From Labilithrix sp. (lineage in GTDB: Bacteria > Myxococcota > Polyangia > Polyangiales > Polyangiaceae): a DNA stretch of 29,225 bases. The stretch is taken from NCBI GenBank assembly GCA_028287035.1, contig JAQBQL010000154.1, positions 1 through 29,225 of the forward strand, written 5' to 3'. The position numbers and the translations under genes were made by a program. A model generated the notes under the pieces. That model was not told where the DNA came from, ran no database searches, and saw only the letters and a list, made by a program, of their open reading frames with translations. This document shows, in pieces, positions 2,603 through 27,607 of the stretch (the first letter of the stretch is position 1; each line of letters begins with the position of its first letter).

Positions 2603-3706
2603 TCAGCGGCGCGGGCCGAGGAGGAGCCCGCGCTCCTCGGCCGCGCCCTTCACGCCCTTGTGGATCACGATCTTCTGCCCGGCCTCGCGCCCGTGGAGGT
2701 AGGCGTCGGTGCGCCGCTGCCCGGCGTAACGCACGTGGCGAACGTGCGGGTGTCGGCTCCGGAAGAACCCCTCGAGGTCGGCGTCCGCGACCCACACGAG
2801 CCCGGCGCTCTCCGCCTTCTTGGCCTCGCGCGCGAGCTTGTCGGTCATCCCGGTCATGACGCCGGCGAGGAACGTGCGGCGATCGCGGTTGCCCCGCACG
2901 CCATGCGCGGCCTTGTGCTCGTCCCACAGGCGCTCGGCGGTCTGCACGAGGTAGCCGTGGACGTACTCGGCGATCTCGACGTTCTCCGGCGAGCCGCAGA
3001 TCTCGAGCACGCTCCCGCGCTTGCCGAGGGCCGCCCGGTAGACGGGCACCCAGATCGCCTCGACGAAGAAGTGCTTGCTGAGGAGGAGTGACAGCACGCG
3101 CTCCGCCTCGCTGGTCCGGCCGGTCGGCGTGCCGAGGTGACGCCACGCGTAGCCGTGCGCGCTGCGCGCCGCGCCGAGCTCGAGGTTGTGCTTCAGGAGG
3201 AGGCGCTGCGCGGCGGCCATTGCCGCCTCGGCCTCGTGGACGTTCGGGCTTCCGGCGAGCGCGAGGAGCCGCGCGATGCGCTCGGCGATCTTGCCCTGCT
3301 CGGTGGGCACGTCCTCGGTGCGCGGGATGGGCATCCCGGCGGCGGCCGCGTCGATGCCGAGCTTCCTGCAGACGGCGCGGAAGCGCGGGCCGTGCGCGGT
3401 CTCGCCGCGCTCTCCGAGCACCTCGGTGACGTACTGGTGGGCCATCTCGTGCTTCAGCACCTCGAGGACCACGCCCCACGGCTGTTCCAGGACGAGGGGC
3501 CGTGACAGCTCGATCGTGCGCGTCGCCTCGATCCAGCGCCCGAGGCGCGCGCGCGACTGCACCAGCTCGAACTGCGGCGCCCTCAGGCCGCCGCGGAAGT
3601 AGGTCTGCGCGAGGTGACGGTACGTCCCGCCGACCTCGCGCAGCAGCGCCGTCTCGAGCTCCGCGGAGAGGCGGGGAAGGGCGTCGTCGTTCAGTTGATG
3701 TCCCAC
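2603..3706 (-). CDS. SprT-like zinc metallopeptidase domain fused to DUF2786
   Basis: A 367-residue protein. Residues about 15-120 are SprT-like with the zinc-protease motif HEMAH (86-90) and a further His at 105 (TAHGPRF) as likely third ligand. Residues about 139-178 match the DUF2786 pattern (KIAERIARLLALAG, then an Ala-rich helix ending LLLKHNLE). The rest (180-367) resembles the C-terminal region that usually follows DUF2786 and is of unknown function. SprT/Spartan proteins cleave DNA-crosslinked or DNA-bound proteins, but no bacterial role for this two-domain form is known to me. Its ATG at 3706 lies inside the end of the upstream GTPase gene (16-base overlap), suggesting translational coupling. 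Ogt, a DNA-repair enzyme, follows after 24 bases, which fits a DNA-maintenance role by inference. Confidence 0.85.
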   Translation of the reverse strand: MGHQLNDDALPRLSAELETALLREVGGTYRHLAQTYFRGGLRAPQFELVQSRARLGRWIEATRTIELSRPLVLEQPWGVVLEVLKHEMAHQYVTEVLGERGETAHGPRFRAVCRKLGIDAAAAGMPIPRTEDVPTEQGKIAERIARLLALAGSPNVHEAEAAMAAAQRLLLKHNLELGAARSAHGYAWRHLGTPTGRTSEAERVLSLLLSKHFFVEAIWVPVYRAALGKRGSVLEICGSPENVEIAEYVHGYLVQTAERLWDEHKAAHGVRGNRDRRTFLAGVMTGMTDKLAREAKKAESAGLVWVADADLEGFFRSRHPHVRHVRYAGQRRTDAYLHGREAGQKIVIHKGVKGAAEERGLLLGPRR

Positions 3707-10127: not shown

Positions 10128-11588
10128 GTGACCGCCGGAGGTCGCACGCTGGCCGGGCTCGGCGCCCTCGTCCTCGCGCTGGCCGGCGCCTCGCTGGCGC
10201 CGGTGGCGTGCGGGAGCTCGGGCGATGCGAGCGACGCCGGGCCCGGGACCTCGTTCGTCTACCGCGGCGCGGGCTGCGCGTACGACGTGTCGCCGCCGGC
10301 GGCGCTCGGCTTCGTCGACCTCGCGGAGGACGACGTGTCGCCAGGCGCCGAGCCGCTGCGGATCCGCCTCGGCCTCGGCGGCGCGACCGTCCACGGCGCG
10401 CCCGGGTACGCCGATCCCTCGCGCACCGCCGTCCTGACGTGGGAGACGGCGACCCCGAGCCGCGCCGCGCGGGTGCGCATCGCTCCGGTGGGCGCTCCGG
10501 CGCTCGAGCTCCGCGGCTACTCGTGGACGACGCCCGCGCCCGAGAATGGCTTCGGGAGCACCGAGCCAGCAACGCCGATGCACGAGGTGCACGTGTGCGG
10601 CCTCGAGCCGGGCCGCACCTACAGCTACCAGGTCGGCGGCGGCACCCCCGAGGTGTGGAGCGCGCCGCAGACCTTCACCACGGTCCCGGCCACCGGGAAG
10701 ATCACGGTCGGCATCCTCGGCGACGCCCGCGACCGCGTGGACGTGTGGCAGCGGGCCGAGCAGCGCATGCGCGACCGCGCGGTGAACCTCCAGATCACGA
10801 CCGGCGATCTCGTCTTCACCGGGACCCAGCAGTCGCTCTACGACCGCTGGCTCGGCGCCATCTGGAAGGATCCGGCCGACCCGGCGCGCTTCGTCACCCT
10901 CGGCCAGCAGATGATCCTGTTCGTCGCCGGCAACCACGAGAACGACGCCGTCCGCTTCTACGGCTCCTTCGCCTCGCCCGGCACCGGGCCCTTCGCGGAG
11001 TCGTACGGCTCGTTCGACGCCGGCAACACGCACTTCGTCGTCTACGACGACCAGCCGCTCGCGCTCCTTGCCGGCACCCCGCAAGCGGTCGAGATCCAGC
11101 GGTTCCTCGAGGACGACCTCGCCGAGGCGGACCGCCACCGGGACGTGACGCCGTTCGTGGTGGTCGTGCACCACCGCGGCCTCTACACGACGTCCACGCA
11201 CGCGACCGACTCCGACGTGCTCGACCTCCGGAGCAGGATGGCGCCCCTCTACGACCGCCACCACGTGGACCTCGTCGTGAACGGGCACGACCACGCCTAC
11301 GAGCGGACCCGCACGCTGAACGCCGGGAGCGACCCGCGCGGCCTCCCCGCGGTCGTTCCGGCGGGGAAGGGCACCGTCTACGTCGTGAATGCCGGCGCCG
11401 GGGCCGATCCCTATGCCGTCGGCGAAGGTCCGTTCGTCGAGCGCGCCGCGGTGTTCGGTCCGGGGACGCCGTACGACGGCCTCTACGGCGTGCTCACGCT
11501 CGAGGGGCGCCGCCTGGTGCTCGACACGCACGGCCTGACCGCGGCGGGCGACGACCCGGTCATCGACTCGGTCGTCCTCGAGCGCTGA
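10128..11588 (+). CDS. Purple-acid-phosphatase-like metallophosphoesterase, probable lipoprotein
   Basis: A 486-residue exported phosphoesterase. A hydrophobic signal (about 8-24) ends at Cys28 in a loose lipobox (PVAC), followed by Gly/Ser-rich sequence. Residues about 98-186 look like the Fn3-like N-terminal domain of purple acid phosphatases. The metal-site motifs are GDAR (198-201), GD (226-227), GNHE (268-271), HH (348-349) and GHDHAYER (386-393). The first motif lacks the usual GD-x-G glycine, and the metal-bridging Tyr of classic purple acid phosphatases is not evident after GDLVF. It may therefore be a non-purple member acting on phosphomono- or diesters. The GTG start is set by GAGGAG ten bases upstream, inside the end of pruA (7-base gap). 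Its 3' end overlaps the convergent YkgJ-type gene by 29 bases. Confidence 0.88.
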   Translation: MTAGGRTLAGLGALVLALAGASLAPVACGSSGDASDAGPGTSFVYRGAGCAYDVSPPAALGFVDLAEDDVSPGAEPLRIRLGLGGATVHGAPGYADPSRTAVLTWETATPSRAARVRIAPVGAPALELRGYSWTTPAPENGFGSTEPATPMHEVHVCGLEPGRTYSYQVGGGTPEVWSAPQTFTTVPATGKITVGILGDARDRVDVWQRAEQRMRDRAVNLQITTGDLVFTGTQQSLYDRWLGAIWKDPADPARFVTLGQQMILFVAGNHENDAVRFYGSFASPGTGPFAESYGSFDAGNTHFVVYDDQPLALLAGTPQAVEIQRFLEDDLAEADRHRDVTPFVVVVHHRGLYTTSTHATDSDVLDLRSRMAPLYDRHHVDLVVNGHDHAYERTRTLNAGSDPRGLPAVVPAGKGTVYVVNAGAGADPYAVGEGPFVERAAVFGPGTPYDGLYGVLTLEGRRLVLDTHGLTAAGDDPVIDSVVLER

Positions 11589-11955: not shown

Positions 11956-12419
11956 GCGATGTCGATCCTAGCGCTGGTCGGCGGCTCGGGGGCGGCCGGC
12001 GGCGCGAGGAACGCCGCATGCGCCAGCATCCCGACGATCGGCGCGAGGCCGACGAAGATCGCGCCCACCGCTTGCGCCTGCAGCACGAGGGCGACCCCGT
12101 AGGCGAGCAGACCGAAGGAGGAGGCGACCGTCACGCCCCCGAGCTCGTGGACGCGGGCCGCCAGGCCGACGCTCGCGAGGACGAGCAGCGCCACGACCGT
12201 GCCGCCGAGCACCTCCGTGCCGCCGGCATGCGCGCTGACGGGGGCCGTCCAGGCGCGGGCGATCTCGATCCCGGAAGCGGAGAGCGTCGTGGCGGCGCCG
12301 ACGTACCCGGCGAAGGCGCGCACCGGCACCCCGCGGCTCGGTCGCCGCGGCGCGGGGAGGGTCTCGGTCGTCGTGGAGGAGGCCGTCGGACCACGCGTGA
12401 AGGAAGTTTCGTCGAGCAT
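11859..12419 (-). CDS. Small membrane protein of unknown function
   Basis: 186 residues in the preferred start at 12419; an in-frame ATG at 12548 would add 43 Arg-rich residues. The N-terminus is Ser/Thr/Pro-rich, followed by about four hydrophobic segments (roughly 38-56, 68-86, 93-112 and 115-137) and a basic tail. No family is recognised. The tail (about the last 32 residues) is encoded in the same DNA as the start of the YkgJ-type gene in a different frame. That is longer than normal for coupled genes, so the true C-terminus may be shorter or the overlap may be real. No Shine-Dalgarno is obvious. It is judged real from the hydrophobic pattern, with moderate certainty. Confidence 0.6.
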   Translation of the reverse strand: MLDETSFTRGPTASSTTTETLPAPRRPSRGVPVRAFAGYVGAATTLSASGIEIARAWTAPVSAHAGGTEVLGGTVVALLVLASVGLAARVHELGGVTVASSFGLLAYGVALVLQAQAVGAIFVGLAPIVGMLAHAAFLAPPAAPEPPTSARIDIAWAIAKSRAKARQGTARAAERAASRNLHGMLA

Positions 12420-14952: not shown

Positions 14953-16332
14953 GTGCTGAGGGTTGCGGGCATCGAGAAGGCGTTCGGCTCCCAGCCGGTG
15001 CTGCGCGGCATCGACCTCGAGGTGGCGGCGGGCGAGGTGCATGCGCTCCTCGGCGAGAACGGCGCCGGCAAGAGCACGCTGGTGCGCATCCTGCTCGGCA
15101 TCGCGCAGGCCGATCGCGGCGCGATGCTCCTCGGCGGCACGCCCTACGCGCCGCGCGATGCCGGAGCGGCGCGCGCCGCCGGCGTCGTGATGGTGCCCCA
15201 GGAGCGCACGCTCTGCCCGCACCTCACCGTCACCGAGAACATCGTCCTCGGCATCGAGCCGACCGGCCCGGGCGGCCTCCTCCGCCGCGGCGAGGAACGC
15301 GAGCGCGCGCGGCGAGCTACGGCGCTCGTGGCCGGTGAGGGGCGCCTCCGCCTCGACGCCCGCGCCGGGGACCTCGGGGTCGCCGACCAGCAGCTCGTCG
15401 AGATCGCCCGCGCGCTCGCGCAAGGGACGGCGGCGCGCGTCCTCGTGCTCGACGAGCCCACCGCGAGCCTCGGCCACGACGATGCCACGCGGCTCTTCCA
15501 ACGGGTGGCGGCGCTCCGCGCCACCGGCCTAGCGGTCGTGCTGGTGACCCACTTCCTCGGCGACGTCCGCGCGCACGCCGACCGCTACACGGTGCTGCGC
15601 GACGGCAAGGTGCAAGGGCAGGGCGACGCGCGCACCACCGAAGCTTCGGTCCTGGTCGAGGCCATGCTCGGTCCCGCGAGGCAGGCGCTCGCCGCGCGGC
15701 CCGCCAGCGCGAGCGGGGCAGGGGAGCCGGCGGGCGCGAGCGGCCTCGTGCGGCGCGGCGAGGTCCTCGGCATCGCGGGGCTCGTGGGCTCCGGCCGCAC
15801 GTCGCTCCTCCGCGCCACCCTGACCGCCGAGCGCAAGGCCGGGACGCGCATCGGCATGCTGAGCGAGGACCGCGGCGGCGAGGGCCTCATGCTGGCGCGC
15901 AGCATCGCCGACAACGTGGCGCTCTCGCCCCGCGGCTCGTGGCGCGTCTCACCGCGCGCCGAGCTCGCCGAGGCGGCCCGCTGGATCGGCGAGCTCGCCA
16001 TCAAGAGCCGGGGCCCGGCGCAGCCCGCCGGCGAGCTGTCCGGCGGCAACCAGCAGAAGGTGCAGATTGCACGTTTGCTGCGGGAGGATCACGAGGTCCT
16101 CCTCGTCGACGAGCCCACGCGCGGCGTCGACGTGGCGAGCAAGGCGCAGATCCTGAGCCTCCTCCGCGACCTCGCGGGCCGCGGCAAGGCGGTGGTGCTC
16201 GTCTCGAGCCAGCTCGAGGAGCTCGTGAGCACCTGCGACCGCATCGCGCTGCTGAAGGACGGCCGCCTCGGAGAGCCGCGCCCGGCGACGGACTGGGACG
16301 AGCAGAGCCTCCTCCTCGAGGTCGCCTCGTGA
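14953..16332 (+). CDS. Sugar-type ABC importer ATPase (RbsA-like) with two ABC domains, the second compacted
   Basis: 459 residues, starting at GTG 14953, the only in-frame start after the binding-protein stop. Domain 1 has Walker A GENGAGKST (34-42), a degenerate signature LGVADQQ (141-147, compare LSIGDQQ in RbsA) and Walker B VLVLDEPT (163-170). Domain 2 has an altered Walker A GLVGSGRTS (276-284), intact signature LSGGNQQ (362-368) and Walker B VLLVDEPTRGVD (382-393). The mix of one degenerate signature and one altered P-loop is normal for RbsA. The total is about 40 residues shorter than RbsA. The loss falls at the start of domain 2 and between its Walker A and SEDR motif (304-307). The GTG of the permease overlaps its stop by four bases (GTGA), so the two are coupled. 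Confidence 0.93.
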   Translation: MLRVAGIEKAFGSQPVLRGIDLEVAAGEVHALLGENGAGKSTLVRILLGIAQADRGAMLLGGTPYAPRDAGAARAAGVVMVPQERTLCPHLTVTENIVLGIEPTGPGGLLRRGEERERARRATALVAGEGRLRLDARAGDLGVADQQLVEIARALAQGTAARVLVLDEPTASLGHDDATRLFQRVAALRATGLAVVLVTHFLGDVRAHADRYTVLRDGKVQGQGDARTTEASVLVEAMLGPARQALAARPASASGAGEPAGASGLVRRGEVLGIAGLVGSGRTSLLRATLTAERKAGTRIGMLSEDRGGEGLMLARSIADNVALSPRGSWRVSPRAELAEAARWIGELAIKSRGPAQPAGELSGGNQQKVQIARLLREDHEVLLVDEPTRGVDVASKAQILSLLRDLAGRGKAVVLVSSQLEELVSTCDRIALLKDGRLGEPRPATDWDEQSLLLEVAS

Positions 16333-17282
16333 GCGCGCTCGCGGCGCTGCAGCGCGGCCGTCGTCCGGCGTGGCTCGGACCGCTCGCCGCGCTGCTCGTG
16401 CTGTACGCGCTCTTCGCGGTCATCACGCCGGAGCACTCGTTCCTCCGGACGCAGAACCTGCTCACCATGGGCCGCCAGACGGTCGTGGTCGCGATATGCG
16501 CGCTGGGCATGACGCTCGTCATCGTCACGGGCGGGATCGATCTCTCGATCGGTTCGCTCGTCGCGTTCACCACCGTGGTCATCGCGCGCCTCTTGCGGGG
16601 CGGCGCGAGCCCCGTCACCGCGGTGCTCGTGGCGATACTCGCAGCGACGGCGATCGGGGCGGTGATCGGGGTCCTCGTCGGGCGCTTCCGCATGATGCCG
16701 TTCGTGGTGACGCTGGGCGCGATGACCGCCCTCCGCGGCGCCGCCAAGGGGCTCGCCTCCGAGCAGAAGATTGACTGCGACCCGCGCGGCCTCGACCGCG
16801 TGCTCGAGGCCTCGCTGGCCTCTCCCGGCTTGTGGGCGGCGCTCCTGCTCGCGGTGGTCGTGGCGCTCGTCCTCGACTACACGCGCTTCGGCCGGCACGT
16901 CGTGGCGGTCGGCTCGAACGAGGCCACCGCGCGGCTCGTCGGGATCGACGCAGGCCGCGTGAAGATCCTCGTCTACGCGGCCTCCAGCCTCCTCGTCGGC
17001 ATCGCCGGGGTGATGGAGTTCTCGACGCTCACCGTCGGCGATCCGACCGACTCGGCGGGCCTCGAGCTCGAGGTCATCGCCGCCGTCGTCATCGGCGGGG
17101 CGCCGCTCGCGGGCGGGGAGGGGAGCATCGTCGGCTCGGTCCTCGGCGCGCTCCTCATGACCGTCATCCGCACCGGCGCGGTCCACCTCGGCATGCCGAG
17201 CTGGGTGCAGGAGATCGTCACCGGCCTCATCATCCTCGTCGCGGTCGCGATCGACCGCGGCCGGCGGCGTTCACGGAACTGA
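16329..17282 (+). CDS. Sugar-type ABC importer permease (RbsC-like)
   Basis: 317 residues with eight or more hydrophobic segments. Family hallmarks are GIDLSIGSLVAFTTV near the N-terminal third, PFVVTLGAMTALRG, FGRHVVAVGSNEATARLVGI and VIAAVVIGGAPLAGGEGSIVGSVLGALLM near the C-terminus. Two copies would form the channel with the RbsA-like ATPase. The GTG at 16329 overlaps the ATPase stop by four bases; the open frame extends upstream but that part is a shadow of the ATPase gene. The SDR gene begins 42 bases later on the same strand. Confidence 0.93.
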   Translation: MSALAALQRGRRPAWLGPLAALLVLYALFAVITPEHSFLRTQNLLTMGRQTVVVAICALGMTLVIVTGGIDLSIGSLVAFTTVVIARLLRGGASPVTAVLVAILAATAIGAVIGVLVGRFRMMPFVVTLGAMTALRGAAKGLASEQKIDCDPRGLDRVLEASLASPGLWAALLLAVVVALVLDYTRFGRHVVAVGSNEATARLVGIDAGRVKILVYAASSLLVGIAGVMEFSTLTVGDPTDSAGLELEVIAAVVIGGAPLAGGEGSIVGSVLGALLMTVIRTGAVHLGMPSWVQEIVTGLIILVAVAIDRGRRRSRN

Positions 17283-19252: not shown

Positions 19253-20854
19253 ATGCGTAAGGGGATCATCACCGTCGGTTGCCTGCTGGTCGCCGGCTGC
19301 GGAGCCTTCTCGGGCGAGAGCGACCCCCCCGCGGCGACGCCGCCGGGCGACGCGCCGACGAACAACGGCCAGACGCCCAGCGACAACGCGACCAACGTGC
19401 CGCCGGTCGGCGGTACGGCCGTCGCCGGCGTGTACGTGTCCGCCTCGCTCGGCCTCGACGGAGCGACCGGCAGCGCGGCGCATCCCTTGAAGAAGCTCGC
19501 CGACGCGATCGCCCTCGCCAAGGCGCAGAACCTCCCGGTCAACGCCTGCGCCGAGACGTATGCCGAGGCGGTCACGCTCGTCGATGGCGTCTCGATGTTC
19601 GGGTACCTCGATTGCACGAAGGAGTGGGTCCGCGGCGCCGCGAACGCGAAGATCGTGTCGCCGACGTCGCCGGCGATGACCGCCGCCTCGATCACGCTGC
19701 CCACCCGGATCGCCGGCTTCGACGTGCAGGCGCCCGATCTCGACGCGCTCGCCGCGGCGGACGCCCCCGCCTCGATCGCCCTGTCGGTCCGCGACTCGAA
19801 GAACCTCACGTTCAGCGCGTTCGTGGCGCGGGCCGGCAAGGGAGCGCCGGGCGCGAACGGCGCGGCGGCCGCAACGAACGCGGCCACGTTCTCGGCGCCC
19901 GGGAACGCTCGCGACCAGTACGCCCCGTGCGCGGGGCTCCTCAAGCCCACCTTCTGCACGAACGCCGGCGTTGGGCCAAATACCAGCTCCGCTCCGGGAG
20001 GGACTGCGACCTGCGCGCTCGGAGGCGCGGGCGGCGCGGGCGGCGTCAGCGGGGCGCCTCGGATCTTCCTGGACGGAGGGATGATCCTCAATCCCTCGAT
20101 CCCGCCGCAGGACGGCCAGGCGGGCGGCGGGGCGGCTCCAGGCGCCGGCGGGACGAACGGCGGTAACGGCGCCAACGGCGGCGACGGTACTCCGGGCCTG
20201 AACGGCGCCAACGGGCAGTGGCTCCTGACCGCTGACGGATTCGCGGTCGGGAACGGGACCGCCGGCGCGGGCGGCAGCCCCGGTGCGGGTGGCGGGGGCG
20301 GCGGCGCCACGACCGTCTTCTGGGACGCGGCGGGCAACGTTTCGGCCCAGCCGGGCTCGGGCTATTACATCACCGCGAGCGGCGCGGGTGGCGGGGCTGG
20401 CGGCTGCGCGGGCCAGGCCGGCACGCCCGGAACCGGCGGCGGCGCGAGCATCGCGGCGTTCGTCGTCCGCAGCGCTGTCACGTTCGAGCAGTCGCGGCTC
20501 GAGTCCGCGGCCGGCGGTCGCGCCGGCAAGGGGACGCTCGGCACGATCGGAACGCCGGGCCAGGCCGGCCTGGTGGGCCTCACCCGCAAGAAGCTCAGCG
20601 GGACCCCGCCGGCGTTGATGACCATCCACATCACCGGGGACGGCGGAACCGGCGGGTCCGGCGGCAGCGGCGGCGCGAGCGGGCACGGCGCGCCCGGGCC
20701 CTCGATCGCCCTCGCGTACAGCGGCGATCGGCCGACCCTGACCGGCACCGACCTCGCGCCGGGACCGGCCGGGGAGGGGCAGCCCGAGCTCACGAACCCG
20801 TCGACGGTGCCGGCCATCGCCGGCATCTCGGAGGCCGAGCACCACATCCAGTGA
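19253..20854 (+). CDS. Gly-rich lipoprotein with N-terminal DUF1565-like region
   Basis: 533 residues. The signal peptide ends in lipobox VAGC (Cys16). A Pro/Asn/Thr-rich spacer (20-53) leads to a segment (about 58-125) of the form VYVSASLGLDGATGSAAHPLK, the pattern of DUF1565-like starts of parallel beta-helix surface proteins. Residues about 190-500 are dominated by Gly, Ala and Asn with many GAGG/GGNGANGGDG runs, reminiscent of PGRS or collagen-like low complexity, interrupted by more ordinary strands. It has several Cys residues (for example in CAGL, TFCTN and GGCAG). GAGGAG six bases before the ATG is a strong RBS. It is monocistronic and convergent with the urease operon. The role is unknown; surface or matrix structure is a guess. 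Such proteins are common in Polyangia. Confidence 0.85.
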   Translation: MRKGIITVGCLLVAGCGAFSGESDPPAATPPGDAPTNNGQTPSDNATNVPPVGGTAVAGVYVSASLGLDGATGSAAHPLKKLADAIALAKAQNLPVNACAETYAEAVTLVDGVSMFGYLDCTKEWVRGAANAKIVSPTSPAMTAASITLPTRIAGFDVQAPDLDALAAADAPASIALSVRDSKNLTFSAFVARAGKGAPGANGAAAATNAATFSAPGNARDQYAPCAGLLKPTFCTNAGVGPNTSSAPGGTATCALGGAGGAGGVSGAPRIFLDGGMILNPSIPPQDGQAGGGAAPGAGGTNGGNGANGGDGTPGLNGANGQWLLTADGFAVGNGTAGAGGSPGAGGGGGGATTVFWDAAGNVSAQPGSGYYITASGAGGGAGGCAGQAGTPGTGGGASIAAFVVRSAVTFEQSRLESAAGGRAGKGTLGTIGTPGQAGLVGLTRKKLSGTPPALMTIHITGDGGTGGSGGSGGASGHGAPGPSIALAYSGDRPTLTGTDLAPGPAGEGQPELTNPSTVPAIAGISEAEHHIQ

Positions 20855-20876: not shown

Positions 20877-21629
20877 TCAGACGCCGCCCGCCGCCTCCTT
20901 CGCGAGCGCCTCGGAGCGCGCCGCCAGGAAATGCGCGACGATGGTGTCGACGCCCTGCCCCACGTTGCAGCGCGCGAACACCACGGGCCCGCCCTGGCGG
21001 ATGCGATCGGCGTCGCGCTTCATCACCTCGAGGCTCGCGCCGACGTGCTCGGCGAGGTCGATCTTGTTGATGACGAGCAGATCGCTCTGCGTCACGCCCG
21101 GTCCTCCTTTACGCGGGACCTTGTCGCCGCCTGCGACGTCGACCACGTAGATGGTGAAGTCGACGAGCTCGCGGCTGTACTGCGCCGCGAGGTTGTCGCC
21201 GCCGCTCTCGACGACGAGCAGCTCGGGCTGCACGTCGGCCATGAGCTGCTCGAGCGCGTCGAGGTTCGGCGTGATGTCCTCGCGGATCGCGGCGTGCGGG
21301 CACCCGCCGGTCTCCACCGCGCGGATCTGAGCCGGCGGCAGCGCCTCCTGCCGGTGGAGGAACTCCGCGTCCTCGCGCGTGAAGATGTCGTTGGTCACGA
21401 CCCCGAGGCGCATCGTGTCCCGCAGCATGCGGCAGATCGCGAGCACGAGGGCGGTCTTGCCGCTCCCCACGGGCCCGCCGATGCCGACCGTGAACGCGCG
21501 CTGCCGGAAGTCACGGGGCCGGCGCGGCGGCCGCGCACGGAAGAGCCCGGGACCGTCCAGCCTCTCGTGCGTGTGCCCGTGGTCGTCGTGCGGGTGGTGG
21601 TGATGGTGGTCGGGTCCGTCGTGGGGCAT
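20877..21629 (-). CDS. ureG: Urease accessory GTPase UreG with His-rich N-terminal tail
   Basis: A 250-residue GTPase that powers nickel insertion into urease together with UreD/UreF. P-loop GGPVGSGKT (51-59), nickel-binding CPH (110-112), ESGGDN (141-146) and guanine-specific NKID (188-191) are intact. Residues 1-21 contain ten His, five of them consecutive, plus several Asp. This tail is absent from ordinary bacterial UreG (about 205 residues) and is like plant UreG or the tail of UreE/HypB nickel stores. I choose the ATG at 21629 because GAGG lies six bases upstream; an ATG at 21635 would add Met-Pro. It is the last gene of ureD-ureAB-ureC-ureF-ureG, 17 bases after ureF. No ureE is present. 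Confidence 0.95.
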
Positions 21630-21646: not shown

Positions 21647-22303
21647 TCAGGACTGGAAGAGCCGGCCGTCCAGCCGGTCGTGTAGCGCGCCGAACAGCTC
21701 GGCGACAGGCGAGGCCTGCGCGCTCTCCTCGGGAACGACGTCCCGGGCGGCAAGCGCGATGCGCTCGAGGAGGCCGCGGCGCTCGGCGAGGAGCCGCTGC
21801 GCCTCGAGGGGTCCGAGGAGCCCGAGCCGCACGCCCGCCGAGAGGAGCCCGCGCGCGCACCCGTGCAGGTACCCGGTGACGGCGTCTGCCGGGTCGATGC
21901 CCAGCGCGCCGAGCACCGCCCCGAACACCGGCGCATGGTGGGCGGGGCCGTGCCGCGCGTGGTCGGCGATTGCCTGCACCGCCGGATCGTCGTAGATGCG
22001 CCCGCACGTGCTCGCCAGCGATCGACCCTGCGCGCGGCTGGCGCGGCTCGCGACGTGGCTCGTGCACGAGGCATCGAAGAGCGCGTCGAGCTGGGCGAGC
22101 GCCGCCCCTTCACCACGCTGCTCGCAGGCGCGGCGGACGAACGGCAGCGAGGCGCGACCGGCCTGCCACAGCGCCTCGTCGAGGTAGCCGTCGATCTCGC
22201 GCAGCCCCCGGAGGTGGAGCGCGGCCTCGAGCCCCTGCGAATGCGCGAAGCCGCCCGACGGAAAGCCGCCGTCGACGAGCTGGAGGAAGAGCCACGAGGT
22301 CAT
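21647..22303 (-). CDS. ureF: Urease accessory protein UreF
   Basis: 218 residues. UreF bridges UreD-bound apo-urease and UreG and gates nickel delivery. The N-terminal [22 protein letters not shown] (about 6-27) and the region [28 protein letters not shown] are family hallmarks. The ATG at 22303 overlaps the ureC stop by one base (TGATG), so it is translationally coupled. The frame stays open upstream of this ATG, but that sequence is a shadow of ureC. Length is slightly below the usual 220-230 residues. Confidence 0.94.
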
Positions 22304-24015
22304 CAGAAGAGCGAATAGAGCCGCGACAGCGCGACCCGCGTGGCGGGGACCGACCGCAGGAGCGCCCCGTCCGCGAAGACCTCGTACGACTCGGGATCGA
22401 TGCGCATCACGGGGAGCGCGTCGTTCAGCTTCATGTCGACCTTGCCGATCCCGCGGCACCCGCGCACCGCCTCGACGCGCTTGTGCAGGCCGAGGCCCTT
22501 CACGTTGCCCTCGGCGACGGCGCGCTGCGAGACGAAGGCGATGCTCGAGGCGCCGTTGGCGCGGCCGCGCGCGCCGAACATCGGCCGCATGTACGACGGC
22601 TGCGGCGTCGGGATCGACGCGCCGGGGTCGCCCATCTCGGCCCAGGCGATGAAGCCGCCCTTCATCACGAGCTCGGGCTTGAGCCCGAAGAACCCCGGGC
22701 GCCACAGCACGAGGTCCGCCCACTTGCCGACCTCGACCGAGCCGATCTCGTGGGCCAACCCGTGCGCGATGGCCGGGTTGATCGTGTACTTGGCGACGTA
22801 GCGACGGACCCGCAGGTTGTCGTTCTGCCCGCGCTCGCCGGCGAGCCGCCCGCGCTCCTCCTTCATCTTCGCGGCGGTCTGCCAGGTCCGGCAGATCACC
22901 TCGCCGACGCGGCCCATCGCCTGGCTGTCCGAGGACACCATGCTGATCGCGCCCAGATCGTGGAGGACGTCCTCGGCGGCGATCGTCTCGCCGCGGATGC
23001 GGCTCTCGGCAAACGCGACGTCCTCCGGGATGGTGCTCTTCAGGTGGTGACACACCATGAGCATGTCGAGGTGCTCGTCGAGCGTGTTCACGGTGAAGGG
23101 GCGCGTCGGGTTGGTGGAGCTCGGGAGGACGTTGGGCTCGCCGACCACGCGCATGATGTCGGGCGCGTGGCCGCCGCCCGCGCCCTCCGAGTGGTACGTG
23201 TGGATCGTGCGGCCCTTGAAGGCGGCGATCGAGTCCTGCACGTAGCCCGACTCGTTCAGGGTATCGGTGTGGATGGTGATCTGGACGTCCTCTTCCTCCG
23301 CAACGGCGAGGGCCGTGTCGATCGTGTCCGGCGTCGTGCCCCAGTCCTCGTGGAGCTTGAGGCCGAGGGCGCCGGCGCGGATCTGATCGACGAGCCCCTC
23401 GGGCTGCGAGGTGTTGCCCTTGCCGGTGAGCCCGACGTTCACGGGTAGCGAGTCGGTCGCGAGGAGCATCAGCTCGATGTGGCGTGCGCCCGGCGTGCAG
23501 GTCGTCGCCTTGGTGCCGGTGGCGGGGCCGGTGCCGCCGCCGACGAAGGTGGTGATGCCGCTCGCGATCGCCTCGTCGGCCTGCTGCGGACAGATGAAAT
23601 GGATGTGCGAGTCGATGCCGCCGGCGGTGAGCACGAGGCCCTCGCCGGCCACCGCCTCGGTGGTGACGCCGACGAGCATGGACGGGTCCACGCCGTTCAT
23701 CACCCGCGGATTTCCGGCCTTGCCGATGCCGACGATGCGGCCCGCCTTGATGCCGATGTCGGCCTTGTAGATGCCCGTCCAGTCGACCACGAGCGCGTTG
23801 GTGATGACCACGTCGAGCGCGCGGTCGTCGCCGATCCCGGGCATCTGGCCCATGGCATCGCGCAGCACCTTGCCGCCGCCGAAGACGCACTCGTCGCCGT
23901 ACGAGGTGAGATCGCGCTCGACCTCGATGACGAGGCCCGTGTCGCCGAGCGAGACCTTGTCGCCGGTGGTCGGTCCGTAGAGCGCGGCGTAGGCGCGGCG
24001 GTCGATGCGGCTCAT
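22303..24015 (-). CDS. ureC: Urease subunit alpha
   Basis: 570 residues, the catalytic subunit hydrolysing urea to ammonia and carbamate. Nickel ligands are in place: His137 and His139 (DSHIHF), carbamylated Lys220 (GLKLHEDWG), His249, His275 and Asp363 (SSDSQAMGR). The mobile flap holds Cys322 and His323 ([13 protein letters not shown]). Numbering is shifted by +3 from the Klebsiella enzyme, so length is standard and the enzyme should be active once metallated. The ATG overlaps the ureAB stop by four bases (ATGA). It is cytosolic, assembling with the fused gamma/beta chain. Confidence 0.98.
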
Positions 24016-24677
24016 GCCTTCACCTCGGCGGGCGCGGCGTCATCGACGAGCGTGACGGTCCGGGTCTCGCCGGGCTCGAAGCGGACCGCGGTGCCGGCCG
24101 GGATGTCGAGGTGCTTGCCGCGAGCGAGCTCCCGGTCGAACCGGAGCGCCGAGTTGACCCGCGCGAACGGGTAGTGGCTGCCGACCTGGATGGGGCGGTC
24201 GCCGGCGCTCGTGACCTCGAGGACGGTGCGCGCGCGGCCCGCGTAGAGCTCGATCTCGCCGGGGACGACCTCGACGTGCCCCGCTGCCGGCCCGGCGAGC
24301 GTCGGCCCGAACACCGCGAGGTCCGGCACCGGCAGGAAGCTGCCGTGGAGCGCGAGGCGCAGGTCGCCGTCCTCGAGCGTGAGCGGCTCGTGCACGGTGA
24401 CGAGCTTCGTGCCGTCCTCGAACGTGCCCTCGACCTGCACCTCGTGCACGAGGTCGGGCACGCCCGGAAGGACCTGGCGGATGCCGAGGATGCGGCGCCC
24501 GGTGTCCATGAGCGCGGCGACGCCGTGGCCGTCGCGGATCAGCTCGAGGAGCTGCGTGGCGATGAGCGCCACCGCCTCCGGGTAGCTGAGACGGAGACCG
24601 CGCGCGAGGCGCTTCTGCGCGAGGAACCCCGCGTTGTGGAGGAGCAGCTTGTCGATGTCGCGAGGGGAGAGGTGCAT
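24012..24677 (-). CDS. ureAB: Urease gamma-beta fusion subunit
   Basis: 221 residues combining two structural subunits. Residues 1-100 are UreA/gamma ([55 protein letters not shown]). Residues about 135-215 are UreB/beta (VVPGEIEL, then [35 protein letters not shown]). The linker (101-134) is a Leu/Pro/Gly-rich bridge. Such fusions occur in Helicobacter and some other bacteria. In the beta part the usual GSHxHFxExN motif reads [10 protein letters not shown] (166-175), so the second His and the Glu are lost. The start ATG at 24677 follows a GGGGAGAG-like RBS; ureD ends two bases before it. The longer upstream frame is a ureD shadow. Confidence 0.95.
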
Positions 24678-24679
24678 GG

Positions 24680-25510
24680 TCAGTGTCTCGACAGGAAGGG
24701 ATCGACGACGCCGATCGCGAGGAGGTCCCGGAGCCGGCCTCGAGCCTCGGCAAGCGCATTCATCGGGCGGGTGGCGGCGATGCGGACGATGGCGGCGTCG
24801 GCCTGGCCGGCGATGGCGCTCGGCGCGGCGACGAGGGCGGCGGTGAGCGGGGACGCGGCGAGCACGCCCGCGCGCACCGGCGCGACGCGCGGCCCGATGG
24901 CGATGAGCGTCGCGAACGCCTCGAACGCATCGAGACGAGGCGCGAGCGGTCCGTCGGCGCGGTCGAGGACGAGCGCGTCCCGCACCGCGAGCACTCCGTT
25001 CCGGGTGACCGTGGTGGTGAGCGCGATCCGCGCCGCCGACCACCGTTCACCGTACGCGGGACGCCCGGACGTGAAGCCGTCGAGCAGGACGGCCGAGCCT
25101 TCGCCGTGGAGCGCGACGTCCACGCGCTGCGTGAAGTCTGCGTCCGCGAAGCACGCCACCGGGTCGGGCAGCAGGACGAGCGTGCCGTGGACGTCGGCGC
25201 GGATGGTCTGGCGGCTGCGGCCGCGGAACACCTTCGTGGAGCTCTGCGTGAAGACGAGGAGCGTGGCGCCGGGACCGACGGTCAGGTCCAGATCGAGGAC
25301 GTCGCCGTCCATGAGACCGCCGCCGAGCGTGACGAGGCACACGTCCGCGGCGCGGCTCCCGGGCAAGGTCGGGCGCAGGAACCGCAGTGGGCTCGCGGCG
25401 GTGAGGCGTTCGAGGGTGGTCGCGCCGTGCGCAGCGCTCGCCACGATCGTTCCGCGGCCATGGCCGGAGGGTCGCGCCGCGGGTGCTTCGGCGACCGCCA
25501 TCGGCGACAC
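24680..25510 (-). CDS. ureD: Urease accessory protein UreD (UreH)
   Basis: 276 residues. UreD binds apo-urease and channels nickel from UreG/UreF to the active site. Recognisable are [36 protein letters not shown] (about 62-97), [18 protein letters not shown] and [14 protein letters not shown]. It is the first gene of the urease operon, ending two bases before ureAB. GTG at 25510 or ATG at 25501 may be the start (three residues apart); neither has a clear RBS. The 100-base gap to the divergent acetyltransferase gene (25511-25610) must hold the operon promoter, but I see no clear promoter or NtrC/Nur-type operator in it. Being upstream of the structural genes is a common bacterial order. Confidence 0.93.
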
Positions 25511-25610: not shown

Positions 25611-26171
25611 ATGCCGATCCGTGACGCCACCGGGCTCGACCTCGCGGCCATCGACGAGATCTACAATCACTTCGTCCTGACCTCGACGGCGACGTTCCAG
25701 ATCGAGCCGACGACCGCGGGCGAGCGGCGCCGCTGGTTCGAGGAGCACGGGCCCGAGCATCCGGTCGTCGTGTTCGAGGAAGACGACCCCCCGAGCAGCG
25801 GCGGCAAGACCGGCGTGGCGCGCGTCGCCGGGGGGCGGGTCACGGGCTGGGCGAGCCTGAACCGGTACCGGCAGCGCGAGGCGTACCGCCGGACCGTCGA
25901 GCACTCGGTCTACGTGCGCCACGACCAGCACGGCCGCGGCGTGGGCGGTCAGCTCCTCACCGAGCTCATCGCGCGCGCCACGACCCTTGGCCACCACGTC
26001 ATGCTCGCGCACGTCGCGTCCGATCAGGCCCCGAGCCTCGCGCTCCACCGGCGGCTCGGGTTCGCCGACGCCGGACGCATCCGCGAGGTCGGCTTCAAGT
26101 TCGGCCGCTGGGTCGACGTGTCGATCCTCGACCTGGTCCTGCCGGCACCCCCTGGCCCGAAGTTGACATAA
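25611..26171 (+). CDS. GNAT-family N-acetyltransferase (Pat/MnaT-like)
   Basis: 186 residues. It begins MPIRDATGLDLAAIDEIYNHFV, typical of the phosphinothricin/methionine-sulfoximine acetyltransferase group, and carries the acetyl-CoA loop RHDQHGRGVGG (103-113) and the motif-B stretch APSLALHRRLGFADAGRIREVGFKFGRW (140-167). The region 56-80 (FEEDDPPSSGGKTG...) looks like an insertion relative to the usual 165-175-residue enzymes. I start it at ATG 25611; the open frame upstream is antisense to urease genes. The substrate is unknown; such enzymes often detoxify amino-acid analogues. The final codons AAG TTG ACA TAA lie inside the dif-like site, so its C-terminus is set by that element. Confidence 0.9.
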   Translation: MPIRDATGLDLAAIDEIYNHFVLTSTATFQIEPTTAGERRRWFEEHGPEHPVVVFEEDDPPSSGGKTGVARVAGGRVTGWASLNRYRQREAYRRTVEHSVYVRHDQHGRGVGGQLLTELIARATTLGHHVMLAHVASDQAPSLALHRRLGFADAGRIREVGFKFGRWVDVSILDLVLPAPPGPKLT

Positions 26172-26188
26172 TGCATCTTATGCGAAAT
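26161..26188 (-). other. dif: Candidate dif site (XerC/XerD chromosome-dimer resolution site)
   Basis: Read on the minus strand, this 28-bp element has left arm ATTTCGCATAA, 6-bp centre GATGCA and right arm TTATGTCAACT. The arms match the E. coli dif arms GGTGCGCATAA (8 of 11) and TTATGTTAAAT (9 of 11), and the right arm differs at one position from the Bacillus subtilis arm TTATGTAAACT. The CATAA/TTATG inner halves form the expected inverted repeat around a 6-bp spacer. It stands out as AT-rich in very GC-rich DNA. XerC would bind the left arm and XerD the right; recombination there resolves dimer chromosomes at the terminus under FtsK control. It overlaps the stop codon of the acetyltransferase gene. 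The alternative is a dif-like site used by a Xer-dependent mobile element, but no such element is visible. Confidence 0.8.
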
Positions 26189-26210
26189 TCGAAGGGCGAC
26201 GAAAGGCCGT

Positions 26211-26260
26211 AAAAAAGGGCTCCGGCAGCCCCCGCGTCGCGTGCGGGTGTGCCGGAGCCC
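26211..26260 (-). terminator. Strong intrinsic terminator for the minus-strand yfgM-bamB operon
   Basis: A perfect 11-bp stem, GGGCTCCGGCA (26217-26227) with TGCCGGAGCCC (26250-26260), encloses a 22-base loop that can itself pair partly (CCCCGC with GCGGG). On the minus strand the stem is followed by six T (plus-strand A run 26211-26216). It lies 40 bases beyond the BamB-like stop codon. This is a textbook rho-independent terminator reading leftwards. Its hairpin lies 28 bases from the dif-like site. Confidence 0.92.
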
Positions 26261-26299
26261 TCTCGTGTCGTGGCGTCCGCCCCCAGGCGGCACGCGCCT

Positions 26300-27607
26300 T
26301 CAGGGATGAACGCTGACGCGCTCGTCGGGGCGACGCATCGCGAGCGGCGGCGTGACCGCGAGCCCGATGAACGTCCCGGCGTTGGTGAGCGCGTACGCGC
26401 GGCCGCCATAGGCGCCGGGCGTCTGGGAGAACCCGGTGTTCAGGTCGAAGCCGTCGATGACCTTGCCGTTGCGCGGCGAGATCAGGAACATGCCGTAGCG
26501 GCTCGTGCCGACCAGCAGCGCCCCGGAGAGCGCGACGGGCGCCGTGACGCCGCCCTCGGGCAGCTTGTTCCGCCAGACCGTCCGGCCGGTGTACGGGTCG
26601 AGGCCCGCCAGGCCATACGCGGAGCTCGAGGCGACGAGCAGCTTCCGCTCCGGCACCATCGGACCGTCGCGGTCGGGGCCGTTCGGGTTCGGCCGGTGGG
26701 CCGGCTCGCGCCACAGGAGCAGATCGGTGACGCCGACCGCCTTGTCGTTCGACCAGATGCGCGCCCCGGTCGCCGCATCGAGCGCGTAGACGCCGCCCGC
26801 GTAGCCGGAGACGTAGACGACGCGGCCTTGCGGGTGGTCGTCGAGCACGGGAGTCGTGTCGGCGTCGAGGTAGCGCGGCGCCTCGCCGGCGGCCTGCTCG
26901 GCCTCCGCCGAGAGGTCCACGGGCGTCCACTTCTCGGCGCCGTCGCGGCCGTCGTACGCGATGACGTGCCCGTCCGAGAACGCCATGTAGACGAGCCCGC
27001 TCCGCGGGTCGACGGCGGCGCCGGAGTGGCCGCTGATCTCCATGCCGAGGGCCGGCGTGCGGTGCACCTGCCAGCGCGGCTTGCCGGTGCGCCGGTCGAT
27101 CGAGAAGAGGTAGTCGGCGGCGTTCGAGAAGAAGAGGTTCTCGCCCACGCGCACCGGCTTCCGCGAGACCTCGGCGCCGGTGTCGAAGCGGTAGATCAGC
27201 TTCCCCGTCTGGGCGCTCACGCAGTAGAGCGCGCCGTCGTTGGAGCCGAAGTAGACATAATCCATCTCGATGTCGTACAGGGGCTCGCTCTGGACGACGT
27301 TCAGCGTCTCGTAGCGCCAGATGGTCGAGCCGTCCCCGGCGCGCAGCGCGTAGAGCCCGTGGTCGGACGAGCCGACGAACACGCGGTCACGGACGGGGTC
27401 GATCTCGGGGCGGCCGCGCTCCCACTCCTCGCCGCTCGCGCGCGAGCCGGCGGTGAGCGTGCGATGGGCGAACACGCTCATCGAGCCGCTCGGCCGGTTG
27501 TACCAGCTCGGCACCTCGGGGTTCGTGCGGTCGCCCTGGAGGACGTCCGCGAAGCCGCAGCCGGAGAGCCCGACGAGCGCGACGAGGCCGAGGACCGACG
27601 GCCTCAA
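26300..27607 (-). CDS. BamB-like PQQ-type beta-propeller lipoprotein
   Basis: 435 residues. The start is a TTG at 27607 overlapping the upstream stop codon (TTGA); GGGAG lies just upstream, and this start directly yields a classic signal peptide with lipobox LSGC (Cys17). The body is a beta-propeller of PQQ/WD-like repeats with motifs such as DHGLYALRAGDGSTIWRYE, DGALYCVSAQTGKLIYRF, DYLFSIDRRTGKPRW, GHVIAYDGRDGAEKW, GGVYALDAATGARIW and AGLDPYTGRTVWRN. Lipoprotein anchoring, size and the YfgM-like neighbour match BamB (YfgL), a scaffold of the BAM complex that inserts outer-membrane proteins. Other PQQ-repeat lipoproteins are an alternative. No der (engA), which follows bamB in E. coli, is present; a terminator follows instead. 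Confidence 0.85.
   Translation of the reverse strand: MRPSVLGLVALVGLSGCGFADVLQGDRTNPEVPSWYNRPSGSMSVFAHRTLTAGSRASGEEWERGRPEIDPVRDRVFVGSSDHGLYALRAGDGSTIWRYETLNVVQSEPLYDIEMDYVYFGSNDGALYCVSAQTGKLIYRFDTGAEVSRKPVRVGENLFFSNAADYLFSIDRRTGKPRWQVHRTPALGMEISGHSGAAVDPRSGLVYMAFSDGHVIAYDGRDGAEKWTPVDLSAEAEQAAGEAPRYLDADTTPVLDDHPQGRVVYVSGYAGGVYALDAATGARIWSNDKAVGVTDLLLWREPAHRPNPNGPDRDGPMVPERKLLVASSSAYGLAGLDPYTGRTVWRNKLPEGGVTAPVALSGALLVGTSRYGMFLISPRNGKVIDGFDLNTGFSQTPGAYGGRAYALTNAGTFIGLAVTPPLAMRRPDERVSVHP

Follow-up and report, generated by a model that had tools for sequence, protein, structure and literature searches.

FtsK is described as loading in a fixed orientation on KOPS and travelling from there to XerCD/dif, where XerD, once activated by the gamma domain of FtsK, makes the first strand exchange and XerC the second (PMC5357621). 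The reversal of KOPS at dif is a known hallmark of these sites (PMC13342612), and dif has been predicted in 641 organisms (PMC3025954), a set that may already include sites related to the one reported here. We analysed a stretch of 29,225 nucleotides from Labilithrix sp. (contig JAQBQL010000154.1), referred to below as the window, for which a preliminary description had proposed a dif-like XerC/XerD site. That proposal has held up well: the site scores like published dif sites, is conserved exactly between unrelated flanks, occurs once in nearly all of the family genomes that match it, and is the place where the octamer GGGNAGGG changes strand in each of three relatives. We are therefore highly confident, on sequence grounds, that this 28-mer is the chromosomal dif of a myxobacterium from the Polyangiaceae/Labilithrix neighbourhood, where it would resolve dimers via XerC/XerD and FtsK.

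On the plus strand, positions 26161-26188 of the window read AGTTGACATAA-TGCATC-TTATGCGAAAT, which is indeed the 11-6-11 arrangement with CATAA/TTATG inner arms that had been claimed. The contrast with the surroundings, described earlier as an AT-rich site in a GC-rich setting, is equally clear, as the 28-mer has a G+C content of 32% against 68-77% per kb in the window. It occurs there once, in a search allowing up to 11 mismatches. The site, its parts and its immediate neighbours are the following.

26161-26188, minus strand: predicted dif, 28 bp, reading ATTTCGCATAA GATGCA TTATGTCAACT on the minus strand; based on sequence, a score of 42.4 bits and conservation.
26178-26188, minus strand: XerC-side arm, ATTTCGCATAA on the minus strand; orientation by matrix score; the outer four positions vary among 30 family copies.
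26172-26177, no strand assigned: central hexamer, TGCATC on the plus strand; from the sequence; variable among family copies.
26161-26171, minus strand: XerD-side arm, TTATGTCAACT on the minus strand; orientation by matrix score; 10 of 11 positions invariant among 30 family copies.
25611-26171, plus strand: GNAT acetyltransferase gene, from Pfam Acetyltransf_1 and the translation; start codon picked by hand.
26210-26261, minus strand: terminator-like hairpin where the BamB-like gene ends, with arms at 26216-26227 and 26250-26261 and a run of T on the minus strand; found by eye.
26300-27607, minus strand: gene for a BamB-like PQQ-repeat lipoprotein, from Pfam PQQ_2 and the translation; NCBIfam BamB models stay below cut-off.

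The 28-mer thus lies between the GNAT gene and the terminator-like hairpin of the BamB-like gene, and the GNAT gene finishes in a TAA stop codon (26169-26171) whose three bases are also the innermost ones of the XerD-side arm. The GNAT protein is closest to ArsN1/phosphinothricin acetyltransferase models, under their cut-offs (113 vs 170 bits). Adjoining its gene are urease genes on the minus strand (22303-25510), encoding the alpha subunit, the gamma and beta subunits within a single open frame, and UreD.

How well the site agrees with known ones was measured with a scoring matrix built from the proteobacterial dif sites that Table 1 of PMC2731167 lists, 47 of its 48 being used. With this matrix the 28-mer reaches 42.4 bits when read on the minus strand, as against 32.6 bits on the plus strand, the second-best place in the window scores -0.0 bits, and the best score in 100 first-order shuffles of the window is 9.6 bits. 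Since the median for the published sites is 45.4 bits when each is scored by a matrix from which it was omitted, the 28-mer is as good a dif as those already described. The difference between the two strands also sets its orientation, which is that of the minus strand; the plus-strand reading, which the Xanthomonas campestris site in the same table resembles, was rejected for its lower score. The minus-strand result is unchanged when the three sites with a TTATGCGA arm are removed (42.7 vs 24.6 bits), and a matrix made solely from the seven delta-proteobacterial sites of that source gives 38.4 vs 19.0 bits, with 7.0 at the next place and at most 14.9 in shuffles. A search of the whole window with the E. 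coli dif consensus at up to three mismatches gave no match and was too strict for this site.

Conservation was followed in eight loci of relatives (Labilithrix sp., Polyangiaceae bacterium and Myxococcales bacterium), which were found by means of the window's BamB-like protein at 60-83% identity; by this one protein the window belongs to the same myxobacterial neighbourhood. An identical 28-mer lies downstream of the BamB-like gene in four of the eight (L001, L003, L004 and L005), at L007 it differs in one base and at L002 in five, while the sequence of L008 stops within the BamB-like gene. At L006 there is no site within 11 mismatches near the BamB-like gene, and its genome is also without a match at up to three mismatches or to a looser pattern. 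Five of the genomes behind these loci match at up to three mismatches, with one copy each. The distance from the BamB-like gene to dif ranges among the loci from about 0.2 to 6.3 kb, and across seven loci the core is 96-100% identical to that of the window, as against 20-42% for the 60-base flanks, so that the 28-mer is conserved independently of the flanking sequence, as one would want of the site proposed. In the window and seven of its close copies (L001, L003, L004, L005, L007, L209 and L211), the three bases past the XerC arm (26189-26191) are TCG in seven of the eight sequences and TTG in one; conservation may therefore reach slightly beyond 28 bp.

At the level of the family, 57 of 108 genomes match at up to three mismatches, 54 with one copy and three with two (the drafts G020, G076 and G099), and a reversed-pattern control gave no match in the 108. 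The 51 family genomes without a match at this threshold include many drafts. A looser pattern matches 228 of 317 genomes of the class, 28 of them more than once, and its reversed control again matches none of the 317. In 30 family copies the XerD arm is constant at 10 of 11 positions and the XerC arm varies at its outer four, figures that describe copies chosen by the pattern of up to three mismatches and are biased as an estimate of variability.

If the site is a dif, KOPS-like octamers may be expected to point at it. The preliminary description listed five plus-strand copies of GGGNAGGG and a single minus-strand copy, with none to the right of dif; all of these stand, and two more on the plus strand, at 15616 and 15716, had been overlooked. 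The window thus holds seven plus-strand copies and one minus-strand copy, all of them left of 20961.

3674-3681, plus strand: GGGAAGGG, KOPS-like, towards dif.
11364-11371, plus strand: GGGAAGGG, KOPS-like, towards dif.
12354-12361, plus strand: GGGGAGGG, KOPS-like, towards dif.
15616-15623, plus strand: GGGCAGGG, KOPS-like, towards dif.
15716-15723, plus strand: GGGCAGGG, KOPS-like, towards dif.
17115-17122, plus strand: GGGGAGGG, KOPS-like, towards dif.
20771-20778, plus strand: GGGGAGGG, KOPS-like, towards dif.
20953-20960, minus strand: GGGCAGGG, away from dif.

Their number is ordinary (8 against a mean of 4.3 expected, reached by nine of 100 shuffles), and their 7:1 polarity, which is informative for the left side of dif only, has a one-sided binomial P of 0.035. 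The relatives give a far fuller picture. Within 200 kb on either side of dif, the octamers directed towards and away from it number 134:18 in G015, 89:6 in G084 and 74:12 in G082. In the same order, the turning point of the cumulative strand count lies at -3386 to +492, -7427 to +3640 and -2762 to +1633 bases from dif. A de novo ranking of words of the shape NNN.NNNN by polarity places GGGNAGGG first of 11,876 (297:36, z 14.3), the next word having a z of 7.9. The polarity is not merely a matter of G-rich leading strands, because GGGNTGGG, with towards:away counts of 90:58, 44:42 and 43:45 in the three relatives, and other G-rich octamers are less polarised there than GGGNAGGG. Coarse samples of G015 and G084, 20 of 20 kb each, flip across dif (from 7:1 to 1:7 and from 2:0 to 0:3) and have a weaker polarity far from it, where two samples of G084 (at 12.25 and 12.93 Mb) have the opposite of the expected polarity (3:0 and 2:0). 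Eight more relatives, represented by pieces of 12-21 kb around dif (L001, L003, L004, L005, L007, L209, L210 and L211), together give 46:1; this count leaves out L206-L208, which overlap three of the counted pieces, and L002, a variant outside the pattern. GGGNAGGG converges on dif, its strand reversing at the site in all three relatives examined, and we infer from this polarity that FtsK in this lineage would recognise the octamer.

Other signs of a terminus are less distinct. The strand of the genes had been taken to support forks converging here, an argument that does not survive counting, as nine plus-strand genes left of dif (9,600 bp) are balanced by eight on the minus strand (9,237 bp). 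A GC-skew switch near dif was likewise looked for and nothing sharp emerged in G015, G082 or G084, the skew being noisy in the window and in the relatives, so that it was dropped as the deciding test: the cumulative G-C maximum of the window, at 27593, tells us little since just 3 kb of the window lie right of dif; in 20-kb bins over 200 kb on either side, G084 has a weak switch (10 of 10 bins positive on the left, 6 of 10 negative on the right), and G015 and G082 have no clear one. In the four contigs that start at dnaA (G015, G082, G083 and G084, the length of G083 being rounded), dif lies at 38 to 54% of the contig, a position not strictly opposite dnaA; three of these contigs have unequal arms. 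The site is on the minus strand in three of them and on the plus strand in one, implying that it has no fixed orientation with respect to the origin. According to the passages of PMC13342612 that deal with dif, the site marks late-stage processing and not necessarily the end of replication. Of the earlier suggestion that the window may contain the replication terminus, what stands is the convergence of FtsK-orienting motifs at dif, as seen in the relatives; the part about meeting forks does not carry over, because dif need not mark the point where they meet (PMC13342612). For the same reason we prefer to speak of the point where FtsK-orienting motifs converge.

The proteins that such a site calls for are present in the relatives. 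All 14 examined have at least two Xer matches (XerD model, E <= 1e-40), ten of the 14 being over the XerD cut-off, and each has one FtsK gamma domain; the XerD model was the one run, and the weaker second match is taken to be XerC. We infer XerC/XerD binding, recombination and control by FtsK by analogy with E. coli and Vibrio cholerae. An odd number of crossovers would leave sister chromosomes fused; the septal translocase FtsK would then load on GGGNAGGG octamers aimed at dif from both sides and move along the DNA until two copies of dif meet. There XerC would be expected on 26178-26188 and XerD on 26161-26171, and the gamma domain of FtsK would activate XerD and then XerC, so that strand exchange would restore monomers.

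Several genomes of the class hold two to six dif-like sites, for example G037, G117, G301 and G048, and in G117, besides five extra dif-like sites that have a consensus of their own, two integron integrases of full length pass the cut-off. By far the largest number is found in a family genome, G056, where the looser dif pattern has 60 and 60 matches, about 120 in all. These sites are embedded in a repeat of about 95 bp, for which 82 copies gave the consensus. This composite unit, with its core of dif quality, is present in 95 copies in this one of the 317 class genomes and absent from the other 316 at three mismatches. We counted 96 sites in 18 stretches of G056 taken from site-bearing contigs, and there were none in two 20 kb stretches of other contigs. 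The array can be seen in the following stretches.

L192, 265-12001: example of the G056 array; further examples are L186, L187, L189, L197 and L200.

Among 78 sampled neighbouring pairs, 57 have the same orientation, and 61 of the 78 are, by reading of the list, 0.38-4.1 kb apart or below that upper bound. The six stretches viewed often have one plausible gene between two sites, in either direction, and some intervals have several genes or none. Five of ten proteins from the intervals have Pfam hits, of varied kinds, and the intervals are not all unique, as 56 short similarities connect different ones. The consensus of the integron attC box is GTTRRRY. By eye, no attC boxes were seen in the G056 consensus, in which a conserved GTTGGGG mostly lacks the final pyrimidine, and no integron integrase is over cut-off (best 93 vs 265 bits, in a fragmented assembly from which the gene could be missing); on these two grounds the array was not taken for an ordinary integron. 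It bears some resemblance to the chromosomal dif-module islands of Acinetobacter as described in the part of PMC12907356 that concerns them, in that many Xer-type sites stand in a row with genes between them. Modules there lie between C/D and D/C sites and strain M10 has 22 chromosomal sites, whereas in G056 there are about 120, mostly direct and within a longer repeat unit. It is conceivable, though rather doubtful, that Xer recombinases in G056 run a superintegron-like cassette array on dif-like sites and that the dif core of this family serves more than dimer resolution. If this were true, the arrangement would link dimer resolution with the capture of cassettes.

Such genomes, together with the existence of elements that use XerCD and carry dif-like sites (PMC12907356) and of three IMG/VR contigs with a close 24-mer, lend some colour to the idea that the site in the window was left behind by a mobile element making use of XerCD (an IMEX or a pdif module) and is not the chromosome's own dif. 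We consider this very unlikely, given the single copy in 54 of the 57 matching family genomes and the reversal of GGGNAGGG at the site; moreover, those neighbours in the window for which Pfam gives hits have ordinary metabolic or housekeeping roles, and no mobile module around dif is found among them. As to the viral contigs (L218, L219 and L220), whose dif-like core is close to that of the window and of which L218 and L219 show the same site in the same surroundings, their G+C content of 37-41% speaks against an origin in the window's host; they probably have another host and are perhaps XerCD-using phages of such hosts. A search of IMG/VR with the G056 core returned no contig.

Hardly any weight can be given to two further readings. 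The TTGACA at 26163-26168 and the inverted CATAA/TTATG arms could suggest a promoter, a short palindrome for another regulator or a chance resemblance, but among 30 family copies 18 have T and 3 have A in place of the G of TTGACA, the copies have unrelated flanks and hence unrelated neighbouring sequence, one would not expect the reversal of GGGNAGGG to coincide with a promoter, and chance is excluded by score and conservation. It is just as improbable that the site is the dif of a chromid or megaplasmid: big secondary replicons too have a dif with KOPS reversal (PMC13342612), but the homologous site shares a long contig with dnaA in G015, G082, G083 and G084, and the window includes housekeeping genes such as gpsA and argG. 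A dif of the main chromosome is thus the reading we retain.

With this reading, dif is precisely located in a lineage of myxobacteria whose genomes are large and whose GC skew is weak. The polarity of GGGNAGGG places dif within a few kb in these genomes, draft contigs included, and can therefore be used to place termini and to check assemblies. We found no earlier report on KOPS in myxobacteria among the open-licence papers covered by our searches, and the E. coli type of FtsK motif gains sequence support in these organisms. The octamer is the same as the KOPS of E. coli and V. cholerae (PMC5357621, PMC13342612), it is likewise directed at dif and strongest near it, and, as there, it reverses at dif in three relatives, a polarity which suggests that FtsK would load on it here as well.

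The site itself has much in common with proteobacterial dif sites, including those of Myxococcus xanthus and Anaeromyxobacter dehalogenans (PMC2731167), with which it shares the 11-6-11 layout, a TTATGTNAANT XerD arm, CATAA at the inner end of the XerC arm, low G+C and a single copy in most relatives. It departs from the Myxococcus and Anaeromyxobacter sites, as far as the table of PMC2731167 represents them, in its XerC arm, which is ATTTCGCATAA where theirs is of the TCCGATAA type, and in overlapping the stop codon of a gene. Nor does it resemble the dif-module islands of Acinetobacter in the account of PMC12907356, a likeness that concerns G056 only. As a class, chromosomal dif sites are well known, and the one in the window is very probably a clear new example, not something new.
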